A stretch of DNA of 60,856 nt from Bacteroidales bacterium (GTDB lineage Bacteria > Bacteroidota > Bacteroidia > Bacteroidales > UBA1715): positions 1 to 60,856 of the forward strand of contig JAFZOY010000013.1 of the NCBI GenBank assembly GCA_017552705.1. Direction: 5' to 3'. Under the pieces are notes generated by a model, which saw only the letters and a program-made list of their open reading frames with translations, was not told where the DNA came from and did no database searches. Each line of letters begins with the position of its first letter. Position 1 is the first letter of the stretch. Shown here piece by piece: positions 3,080 to 35,627 of the stretch. The position numbers and the translations under genes were made by a program.

Positions 3080-3110
3080 TTGACAACCGAAATAGATTGT
3101 TGTATATTTG
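3080..3110 (+). promoter_or_regulatory. Strong promoter for small RNA A
   Basis: TTGACA with its TTG at 3080-3082, a 20-nt spacer and TATATTTG at 3103-3110 match the Bacteroidetes primary sigma consensus (TTG, 18-21 nt, TAnnTTTG) perfectly. The predicted start is G3115. The same TTGACA/TATATTTGC architecture precedes RNA B (35597-35627) and RNA C (40737-40757). Confidence 0.8.
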
Positions 3111-3114
3111 CAAC

Positions 3115-3235
3115 GTCCTAGGTGAAAAATGAAGACGAAAGTTTAGAAACACGTGGGCAGAAGCCGTTAAGTCGGAAGAACTTTTAGCTACGGCGGGAAA
3201 GTTCAAAAAAGAGAATCAAACGAGTCTCTTTTTTT
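3115..3235 (+). ncRNA. Structured small RNA A, convergent with nuclease gene A
   Basis: A ~120-nt transcript bounded by a consensus promoter and an intrinsic terminator, with no convincing ORF. It is homologous to RNA B at 35468-35592 on the minus strand. Comparison gives three helices: P1 3115-3118 with 3155-3158 (GUCC/GGGC; B has GUUC/GAGC); P2 3133-3136 with 3141-3144, closed by the GNRA loop GAAA (B has GGAA); P3 3178-3185 with 3197-3204 (GAACUUUU/GAAAGUUC; B has GAGUUUUC/GAAAACUC). The P3 loop keeps GCUACGGC, whose ACGGC (3190-3194) can pair with upstream GCCGU (3163-3167) to give a pseudoknot. The compensatory changes indicate selection on RNA structure. I do not recognise a known RNA family. 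Confidence 0.7.
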
Positions 3236-3236
3236 T
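3205..3236. terminator. Bidirectional intrinsic terminator between RNA A and nuclease A
   Basis: A perfect 10-bp stem, AAAAAAGAGA (3205-3214) with TCTCTTTTTT (3225-3234), has a 10-nt loop and a T tract on both strands. It abuts the stop codon of the convergent nuclease gene, so it can serve both transcripts. Confidence 0.8.
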
Positions 3237-3918
3237 ATTTCTTTCGGCTAAACTCTTTGAACATTTTTGTAGAAAAATCTTTTGAATAAACTAAATATCG
3301 GTCTATTTCAATAAGAAATGTACCTTTAAAGAAAAAAATTATTCTTAACTCGGGGTTTTCAAAAAATGCAGTTTTAATATTCTCGGCAAGCTGTTTTATT
3401 TTAGGAGCACCCGTGAGGTTAATTGCAATTCTGTCAGCTTGTGTAGCCCCTTTTTCAAATCGATGTTCTATAGAACTCCCTCCCGTTGATGTCTTCCCTT
3501 CAACATAATATAAGCAATTTCGCTTGCGAATAATGAAATCGGCACTTTTGGTTGCTTTGGGGTTCGAGAGCAAAAACACATCATATCCGTTTGCCACAAA
3601 TTTCTGTGCTATTTGCAGATTGTTTGGTACTTCGCCCGTTTTCAATATTTCGTCATATTGATTTGTGTATAAGGTGTAAATCTTGTTTCCTGCCGTAGAA
3701 AATCGTTGTAATTCTGTAAATCCAGGCTGTGCAATAATCCATTTCAAAACTTCAACCTTTTCACGATTTGTTGAAAATGCGTAATAATCCTTCAGGGCAT
3801 TAGCAATTGTAGTTCCTTGATAAACAATAGGTTTCCCATACTCGGTTGTGGGCTCACAAACGACACTACAAATATCCTCCGTCCGCAATGGGTACGGTGT
3901 TGCTTTTTCTTTTTTCAT
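3235..3918 (-). CDS. CdiA-CT-like / PD-(D/E)XK-like nuclease domain protein, copy A
   Basis: 227 residues with no signal peptide or membrane segment, so probably cytosolic. The N-terminal ~100 residues (TPYPLRTEDIC start) belong to no family I know. The C-terminal half has a nuclease-like pattern: SADF with D127, then E140-G-K142 in YYVEGKTS, then KGATQADRIAINL with Q160 and R163. This order resembles CdiA C-terminal tRNA nuclease and MuF-associated toxin domains and fits a PD-(D/E)XK active site. An equally long paralogue lies at 34786-35469, with the shared stretches RKRNCLYYVEGKTSTGG and KPIVYQGTTI. The promoter -7 box lies a few bases before the ATG. The 3' end faces small RNA A across a shared terminator. 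Activity is inferred only. Confidence 0.7.
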   Translation of the reverse strand: MKKEKATPYPLRTEDICSVVCEPTTEYGKPIVYQGTTIANALKDYYAFSTNREKVEVLKWIIAQPGFTELQRFSTAGNKIYTLYTNQYDEILKTGEVPNNLQIAQKFVANGYDVFLLSNPKATKSADFIIRKRNCLYYVEGKTSTGGSSIEHRFEKGATQADRIAINLTGAPKIKQLAENIKTAFFENPELRIIFFFKGTFLIEIDRYLVYSKDFSTKMFKEFSRKK

Positions 3919-3925
3919 GATGTGG

Positions 3926-3955
3926 CAAAGATATTGAATAAACTGAGATAATCAA
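3926..3955 (-). promoter_or_regulatory. Near-leaderless promoter of nuclease A
   Basis: On the minus strand TTG (plus 3953-3955), a 19-nt spacer and TATCTTTG (plus 3926-3933) match the consensus. The ATG follows seven bases after the -7 box, so the transcript should begin at or just before the start codon. The paralogue at 34786 has the same spacing and the same TATCTTTGCC sequence. Confidence 0.75.
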
Positions 3956-34727: not shown

Positions 34728-34764
34728 TTCATAATTACGCATTACTCATTGAGCATTCCTCATT
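34728..34764 (+). repeat. CATTACTCATT-type degenerate tandem repeat
   Basis: Runs of (g)cattac/gcatt/ctcatt units just upstream of nuclease gene B. A similar array in the same orientation lies at 39690-39735. Confidence 0.5.
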
Positions 34765-34778
34765 ATTTTCTATCTTTG
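34749..34778 (+). promoter_or_regulatory. Near-leaderless promoter of nuclease B
   Basis: TTG (34749-34751), 19 nt, TATCTTTG (34771-34778), ATG seven bases later. It is the same layout and -7 sequence as nuclease A. Confidence 0.75.
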
Positions 34779-34785
34779 CCGCATT

Positions 34786-35469
34786 ATGAATGAAGAAACA
34801 GCAACACCGTACCCACTGAGGACGGAAGATATTTGTGATGTCGTTTGTGAACCTACATCCGACTATGAGAAACCTATTGTATATCAAGGAACTACGATCA
34901 ACAAAGCCATAGCAGACTATTATACTTGTAATACAAACAAAGATAGAGTCACCATTTTACAATGGATAGTAGAACGCACGGAATTTCAGGAATTACGACG
35001 TTTCTCCACGAATGAAAATGCCGTATATGGATTGAACATCAGTCAATACGATGACATTCTTCTTTCTGGAGAAATGCCGAATAATCTTGCAATAGCCCAA
35101 AAACTTGTGACGAACAAATTTGACGTATTCTTGCTTTCAAATCCAAATTCCACCAAAAGTGCGGATTTTATTCTAAGAAAACGAAACTGCTTATATTATG
35201 TAGAAGGAAAAACCTCCACTGGTGGTAGTGCACTCGTTCATCAATTGGGAAAAGGAGCGAAACAGGCTAACAGAATTGTCATTGACTTTATTGCATTACC
35301 CAAGACAAGAGACATAACCCAATTAATACAAAGTACGTTTAACAACCATATAAATCTTGTGGAACTAATGCTATTCAAAGGGAAATCTTTGATATCCATT
35401 AAACGAAAAGACTATACAGCAAAAGATTTTGCAAAAAGATTCAAGCAATTATGGTATAAAACAAAATAA
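34786..35469 (+). CDS. CdiA-CT-like / PD-(D/E)XK-like nuclease domain protein, copy B
   Basis: 227 residues, a co-linear paralogue of the protein at 3235-3918 with about half of its residues identical and no length change. Conserved blocks are ATPYPLRTEDIC.VVCEPT, KPIVYQGTTI, NNL.IAQK, DVFLLSNP..TKSADFI.RKRNC, LYYVEGKTSTGGS and KGA.QA.RI. Divergence concentrates in the region 45-90 and the last 50 residues. The putative active-site D...ExK (SADF, VEGK) is kept. One Asp of the A copy's QADRI becomes Asn here (QANRI). It ends tail to tail with RNA B across a shared terminator, as copy A does with RNA A. No classical immunity gene is beside it. Confidence 0.7.
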   Translation: MNEETATPYPLRTEDICDVVCEPTSDYEKPIVYQGTTINKAIADYYTCNTNKDRVTILQWIVERTEFQELRRFSTNENAVYGLNISQYDDILLSGEMPNNLAIAQKLVTNKFDVFLLSNPNSTKSADFILRKRNCLYYVEGKTSTGGSALVHQLGKGAKQANRIVIDFIALPKTRDITQLIQSTFNNHINLVELMLFKGKSLISIKRKDYTAKDFAKRFKQLWYKTK

Positions 35470-35495
35470 AAAAGGGATTTCACAACCCCTTTTTT
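35468..35495. terminator. Bidirectional terminator between nuclease B and RNA B
   Basis: AAAAAAGGG (35468-35476) with CCCTTTTTT (35487-35495); T tracts on both strands. Its sequence differs from the terminator at locus A but it occupies the same place, starting inside the nuclease stop codon. Confidence 0.8.
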
Positions 35496-35592
35496 AATGA
35501 GTTTTCTTGCCGTAGCCGAAAACTCGCACGAACTTAATCGGCACTTGCTCGAATGGTTCAGGGCTTCCGCCTTTATGTTGATACATAAGAAC
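35468..35592 (-). ncRNA. Structured small RNA B, convergent with nuclease gene B
   Basis: A ~125-nt minus-strand transcript homologous to RNA A. Helices (plus coordinates): P1 35592-35589 with 35550-35547 (GUUC/GAGC); P2 35572-35569 with 35564-35561 around the GNRA loop GGAA (AGGC/GCCC, first pair open); P3 35525-35518 with 35506-35499 (GAGUUUUC/GAAAACUC). The P3 loop GGCUACGGCAA carries CGGC (35512-35509), which can pair with GCCG (35542-35539). Compared with RNA A, two P3 pairs and one pair each in P1 and P2 changed on both sides. A 30-codon ORF (35586-35494) exists but has no intact counterpart in RNA A. Function unknown. Confidence 0.7.
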
Positions 35593-35596
35593 GTGG

Positions 35597-35627
35597 CAAA
35601 TATACAACTTCCTTTCTCGTTTGTCAA
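35597..35627 (-). promoter_or_regulatory. Strong promoter for small RNA B
   Basis: On the minus strand TTGACA (TTG at plus 35625-35627), 20 nt, TATATTTG (plus 35597-35604). Predicted start G35592, five bases after the -7 box as in RNA A. Confidence 0.8.

Follow-up and report, generated by a model that had tools for sequence, protein, structure and literature searches.

Two convergent nuclease–RNA modules in a Bacteroidales contig

The window analysed here is a stretch of 60,856 nt from a Bacteroidales bacterium (contig JAFZOY010000013.1). It contains two modules, named A (positions 3080-3955) and B (34749-35627), in each of which a protein-coding gene faces the gene for a small RNA on the opposite strand (Table 1). 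A preliminary description of this DNA had reported that a 227-residue gene and an RNA of ~120 nt converge on a common bidirectional terminator touching the stop codon, that each has a consensus promoter of its own, and that the layout recurs in module B with paralogous parts; closer inspection bore out all these points. The -7 elements of both the nuclease genes and the RNA genes were of the Bacteroidota type TAnnTTTG, to which the RNA promoters add a perfect TTGACA. The RNA promoter was conserved in all copies and was recovered by a generic sigma-70 scan (11/12 positions); the A-rich terminator stem was absent from the output of a generic terminator scan of the window. The layout lay above chance, a convergent TAnnTTTG element plus a terminator at the stop codon being present at 17 of the 116 ORFs of the window and loci, and all 17 of these being members of the family.

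Table 1. Positions of the features of modules A and B in the window
Feature	Position	Strand	Description and basis
RNA A promoter	3080-3110	+	TTGACA, 3080-3085; TATATTTG, 3103-3110; sequence and sigma-70 scan
RNA A	3111-3236	+	~125 nt; 5′ domain type A, hairpin 1, hairpin 2, terminator
RNA A hairpin 1	3164-3175	+	CCG-UUAAGU-CGG
RNA A hairpin 2	3178-3204	+	8-bp outer stem, 1x2 internal loop, 2 bp, UACG loop; covariation
Bidirectional terminator A	~3205-3234	both	Hairpin plus T-run; stem adjoins nuclease stop codon 3235-3237
Nuclease gene A	3235-3918	-	227 aa; ORF call; predicted CdiA-CT-like PD-(D/E)XK domain at ~residues 78-207; residues 1-27 disordered
Nuclease A, candidate active-site residues			D127, E140-x-K142
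Nuclease gene A -7 element	3926-3933	-	TATCTTTG; read from sequence
Nuclease gene B -7 element	34771-34778	+	TATCTTTG; read from sequence
Nuclease gene B	34786-35469	+	227 aa; 58% protein identity to A
Bidirectional terminator B	35466-35496	both	At nuclease stop codon; read from sequence
RNA B	35469-35596	-	5′ domain type C, hairpins 1 and 2, terminator
RNA B promoter	35597-35627	-	TTGACA, 35627-35622; TATATTTG, 35604-35597

The predicted nuclease resembles CdiA-CT toxins

The Pfam family CdiA_C (PF18451) scored 16.5 and 19.9 bits with the two window proteins, against a curated cut-off of 26.6. It matched 21 of 30 family members at E <= 0.1 (best E 6.4e-6), and the best score among the relatives shown, 24.0 bits, was still under that cut-off. 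A structure model built from 29 relatives (pLDDT 81, pTM 0.77) was compared with known structures. The model matched 4g6v_A, the CdiA-CT of B. pseudomallei 1026b, with a Foldseek E of 2.2e-4 and a Z score of 10.5 (rmsd 4.0 over 120 residues), the next entry having a Z of 7.0. Among predicted viral proteins, the best structural match was named CDI toxin-like, others being minor capsid or MuF-like fusion proteins. The modelled fold is therefore of the CdiA-CT-like PD-(D/E)XK type, which upholds the earlier guess of a CdiA-like protein, though the sequence match to PF18451 falls below the cut-off. CdiA-CT of strain 1026b is an Mg2+-dependent tRNase of the PD-(D/E)XK group whose active-site residues are E, D, D and K (PMC9086364). 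In the alignment of relatives, D127, E140 and K142 were invariant or nearly so; judging by its fold and these residues, the enzyme is probably a tRNase. The gene is under selection, with dN/dS values of 0.05-0.20 between pairs of relatives. With the defence models of PADLOC, the nuclease gave only partial matches (E about 0.003-0.009) and the sister proteins gave none.

The small RNA has a conserved structure

The RNAs, each about 125 nt long, consist of one unit without tandem repeats. Single-sequence folding of the bodies of the two window RNAs was unexceptional (z -1.9 and -0.6), and the claim for a structure is made because of comparative evidence. In 23 distinct RNAs, 92.6% of the hairpin 2 cells were in standard pairs, compared with 63.6 ± 2.0% in shuffled alignments and <=50% in slid ones, which served as controls. 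Double changes were seen in 10/10 pairs, and the covariation score was 0.88 versus 0.28. The hairpin 2 loop was of the YAMG type across the RNAs. Hairpin 1 (CCG[A]-UUAARU-[U]CGG) kept 3-4 consecutive pairs in 29/30 RNAs (3 of 4 in locus L050b), and in L020 CCA/UGG replaces CCG/CGG. Between pairs of relatives, the RNAs differed at 2-3% of sites (0.02-0.03 differences/site) despite a dS of 0.3-1.9 in the adjoining nuclease genes, and the RNA itself must therefore be strongly constrained. None of the 4227 covariance models of Rfam matched it, either at the gathering threshold or at E <= 1.

Three further structures were considered and discarded. A pseudoknot between the CCG of hairpin 1 and a CGG in the hairpin 2 loop, as in ToxI, was rejected: the base beside the CGG tracks its hairpin 2 partner and, as read from the alignment, does not always match the pseudoknot partner in L056, L059 and L020. 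A hammerhead-like core in the type A/B 5′ domain (AUGA..GAAA) was rejected as well, the conserved C, U and G being absent. Mimicry of a tRNA anticodon arm was unsupported, the loop of hairpin 1 being a hexaloop and that of the arm having seven bases.

Short ORFs of 21-40 codons lie inside many type A-C RNAs, for example at 3122-3187 (+) and 35586-35494 (-) of the window; one reads MYQHKGESPEPFEQ.PIKF..., and the CCG motif falls mostly in one frame. Such ORFs might mean that the RNA encodes a small peptide acting as antitoxin, in the manner of type II systems. Phage RNAs having the same 3′ structure (see below) contained no ORF of >16 codons, the maximum being 8 codons in three of them, and the RNAs of L018, L020 and L008 lack the shared reading frame. 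Further, the changes found in 5′ domains of type C fall within a tetraloop (GAAA/GGAA/GUAA/AUAA) and give a different codon, no synonymous change being seen, and the stems covary. A peptide-coding role is consequently very improbable. With small reserve, the comparison of sequences indicates a non-coding RNA in which the short ORFs are probably incidental, although some of these RNAs may have a dual function.

The RNA might also act as a 3′-end antisense or transcription-interference regulator of the nuclease mRNA, with no binding to the protein. As in type I toxin–antitoxin systems, it is encoded opposite the presumed toxin gene; transcription is convergent, and the 3′ end of the RNA covers the mRNA's terminator and stop codon. 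However, complementarity is confined to the common terminator, whereas the RNA has its own fold outside the coding region, kept by compensatory changes that antisense pairing would not need. Solitary RNAs, with no mRNA partner, also exist (see below). We consider this explanation decidedly unlikely.

Nuclease and RNA genes occur together in Bacteroidales

The source genome (2.95 Mb in 160 contigs; a MAG, like the other data, with 4.7% contamination) gave 12 protein matches, most of them 49-65% identical to module B. Two of these, at the end of contig C18 and the start of contig C99 (L007 and L011), look like one nuclease gene split by an insertion element; the RNA there is intact. The genome thus appears to hold about a dozen paralogous nuclease/RNA pairs. 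The named relatives were rumen and gut Bacteroidales MAGs; searches among plasmids found no relatives. Six of the seven genomes of the genus encode the protein, and the same six carry the RNA; both are missing from the seventh.

With a covariance model built on the 3′ half of the RNA, 33 RNAs were detected: 22 beside an intact nuclease gene, two at contig ends, and nine beside a broken nuclease gene or none. The preliminary description had proposed looking for the convergent RNA after the stop codon of homologues. It was present at all 22 intact genus nucleases with readable flanks, at the one readable pair in a genome of another family (where two pairs lie in tandem and a contig end truncates the second) and at 4/4 phage homologues (see below). 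One further nuclease of the genus was truncated by a contig end, its RNA being partly visible. In all copies the RNA gene lay downstream of the nuclease gene on the other strand and had a promoter of its own. No intact main-family nuclease lacking the RNA was found at the loci examined, and intact RNAs away from an intact nuclease were a minority, mostly beside nuclease wrecks. The proposal that the pair forms one unit is upheld by these counts.

Modules A and B are missing from the syntenic sites (lysA, kdsD) in 6/6 sister species, and for this reason both are taken, from synteny, to be accessory insertions. These empty sites, and the scatter of about a dozen copies through a single genome, are what a selfish repeat or mobile RNA–protein element would give, its nuclease serving its own spread. 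Against this, most copies have diverged to 49-65% identity with module B, neither common ends nor a transposase were seen, the fold is that of a toxin and not of a homing enzyme, and in phages the domain is joined to a head protein; a selfish element is thus extremely improbable.

Mosaic RNAs and decaying modules

The RNA's 5′ domain exists in a small number of almost unvarying versions, types A, B, C and D within the genus and further ones in phages, and these combine with differing 3′ halves. At 22 loci, distances between protein C-parts (residues 147-226) correlated with those between RNA 3′ halves (Mantel r 0.58, 0/999 permutations); for the protein N-part, r was 0.10 (133/999 permutations). 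Since the genes are convergent, the variable C-part and the RNA 3′ half are adjacent and can move as one cassette. The correlation supports cognate recognition, although physical adjacency alone could yield it.

RNAs persist beside nuclease genes that have lost most of their length by deletion (L069, residues 32-206; L085) or frameshifts (L042/L046, L045/L047), and beside one interrupted by an insertion element (L075). Intact RNAs with no nuclease at all were found at L072 and L077; those of L089 and L096 were partly decayed. This direction of decay fits a toxin with its antidote. The support is mild, because the nuclease gene is a ~5.5-fold larger mutational target than the RNA, and by length alone 8/8 losses on the protein side have a p of ~0.26. 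Decay asymmetry was dropped as proof of an antitoxin owing to this bias.

In phages the nuclease is the C-terminus of MuF-type head proteins

Over residues 38-227, the nuclease shares 40% identity with the C-terminal part of the head morphogenesis protein of vB_RanS_PJN03 (ON245412.1), whose name suggests a Riemerella phage and which was the one relative in the phage database. The head morphogenesis gene adjoins those for the portal and the terminase. The same RNA, with its promoter, lies directly past its stop codon in convergent orientation; the next genes are on the opposite strand, and a small co-oriented ORF directly after the toxin gene is absent. A full-length profile gave no matches in a viral scan and a C-terminal profile gave three, on virus contigs (L057, L058 and L059) that repeat the MuF-type fusion and the convergent RNA. 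The head protein P0003 matched head-morphogenesis PHROGs (E 6e-137), and L029 matched Phage_Mu_F above the cut-off. The domain is therefore found on different carriers: it stands alone in Bacteroidales and is fused to MuF/head morphogenesis proteins in phages and prophages. The MuF architecture is confined to the phage forms, the window genes being devoid of it. The head protein of L059 (IMGVR_UViG_3300035515_000117) joins a Tox-PL1 papain-like domain and a CdiA-CT-like nuclease in one chain.

Jamet et al. reported that a small ORF, taken as the immunity gene, follows 89% of MuF toxin genes (PMC5576092), and the immunity factors known from CDI and MuF systems are proteins (PMC9086364, PMC5576092). 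The modules share with these polymorphic toxins a nuclease fold, a C-terminal toxin on differing N-terminal carriers, cassette exchange, and a partner in the immunity position just past the toxin. In contrast, that partner seems to be an opposite-strand RNA where a downstream gene for an immunity protein would be expected.

The main rival reading is that the nuclease depends on the RNA, which would be its cofactor, guide or sensor and would activate or direct cleavage in a two-component RNA–protein defence. Such a system would equally show obligate pairing, linkage of the variable halves, multiple copies in each genome and an accessory location. However, the RNA has no spacer-like free segment, its variable part being a base-paired stem; the closest relatives in fold are autonomous toxins blocked by immunity factors; the site after a MuF toxin is the usual one for an immunity gene; and solitary intact RNAs exist (L072, L077). 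On balance, an RNA-dependent nuclease is unlikely.

Distant homologues face candidate RNAs of unrelated sequence

Sister and distant homologues unmatched by the RNA model had their flanks first read by eye and then tested. L049, L051 and L053 were among the 17 ORFs (of 116) with a convergent promoter and terminator. Further distant homologues were gathered with a broader profile and inspected. A TAnnTTTG element in convergent orientation, 25-160 nt beyond the stop codon, was present at 14/17 distant homologues and 9/111 other genes (Fisher p 2.5e-10, a somewhat optimistic value because the set includes members read beforehand, namely L049, L051, L120=L053, L121=L029, L061 and L062, and because the distance limits were relaxed after viewing the data). 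L123, L061 and L062 fell outside this definition yet have near-consensus elements.

Some kinds of RNA recurred: CGGAGATTTCAAATCCACC was found in L053 and L123; GGNUGGGG...CCCCGGCC-like hairpins in L122, L124 and L029, and more loosely in L106 and L107; L061 and L062 had one RNA in common. The candidate RNAs of L127 and L128 were unconvincing. The short RNAs of the most distant homologues were single examples or small groups, backed by the promoter motif alone. The association between this nuclease domain and a convergent RNA appears to predate each of the individual RNA families. A search for distant phages with the L053 domain found none.

L049 (G004:C80:8644-9021) encodes a divergent sister nuclease of 184 aa, whose convergent RNA belongs to a different type, and overlaps the end of a RhuM-like gene (L049:2049-2576, -; PADLOC PDC-S05 candidate defence models, E 2e-67). 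L061 (G617:C105) and L062 (G693:C114), from another family of the phylum, are prophage-like; in each, a CdiA_C-like ORF faces a GC-rich RNA that is conserved and has a different promoter spacing. In L062, a run of CRISPR-like repeats reads through the same frame.

Discussion

We think it probable that the RNA is the cognate antitoxin or immunity factor of a polymorphic-toxin nuclease. Neutralisation of a toxin by an RNA is favoured because of the fold, the MuF context, the immunity-gene position, the obligate pairing, the conservation of the RNA and the joint travel of the variable halves. The pairing, the RNA structure, the selection on both partners, the phage fusion and the generality of the arrangement are results of the analysis, as is the predicted fold; from these we infer toxicity, binding, inhibition and the tRNA target.

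The unit would consist of a toxin, a CdiA-CT-like PD-(D/E)XK nuclease that is probably a tRNase, and an RNA antidote. The RNA would be transcribed from its own strong promoter, fold as a closed 5′ domain plus two hairpins, and bind its cognate nuclease, most simply by filling the substrate site. The nuclease domain would behave as a cassette, either stand-alone on chromosomes or as the C-terminal warhead of MuF-type head proteins, and in phages the RNA would stand in for the usual immunity protein. The tail-to-tail layout, in which linkage was observed, may serve to let the toxin C-terminus and the RNA 3′ half move as one block when paralogues recombine. The preliminary description did not include the dozen or so copies in the genome, cassette exchange, fusion to MuF proteins in phages, or the extension to remote nucleases whose RNAs are unrelated.

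Type III toxin–antitoxin systems (ToxIN, CptIN, TenpIN) likewise combine a nuclease with a small structured RNA, here proposed to neutralise it, and have many divergent pairs per group. They differ in several respects (type III features from PMC5086642). The type III antitoxin consists of tandem repeats and is encoded upstream in the toxin operon, with a terminator between, whereas the present RNA is unrepeated and lies downstream with its own promoter; the contrast with type III loci drawn earlier was correct for all copies. Type III toxins have a MazF/ToxN-like fold, unlike the modelled PD-(D/E)XK fold (Z 10.5), and no pseudoknot is needed here. The modules also resemble the orphan toxin/immunity cassettes of polymorphic toxin loci, being stand-alone toxin modules with a partner, but have their own promoters, are dispersed single units and have an RNA as partner.

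A wider proposal, which we hold to be evenly balanced, is that a broad class of polymorphic-toxin nucleases of Bacteroidota and their phages uses RNA immunity, in the form of structured RNAs encoded tail-to-tail with the toxin and belonging to several unrelated families. Temperate phages would package such toxins in MuF head proteins, the lysogen being protected by the RNA, and a new toxin–antitoxin/immunity class would be defined. No paper linking an RNA antitoxin with CdiA-type toxins was found in the open-access literature, a lack of precedent that is provisional.

The counterparts of polymorphic and MuF toxins are assumed to be immunity proteins, and ORFs are where immunity is looked for. 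If the reading of an RNA antidote is true, it would account for some of the missing immunity genes and would explain the recurrent convergent gene layout. It would also reveal a family of RNA-neutralised toxins unrelated to ToxIN, and the dozen or so diverged toxin/RNA pairs in one genome would provide material for studying the evolution of RNA–protein specificity.
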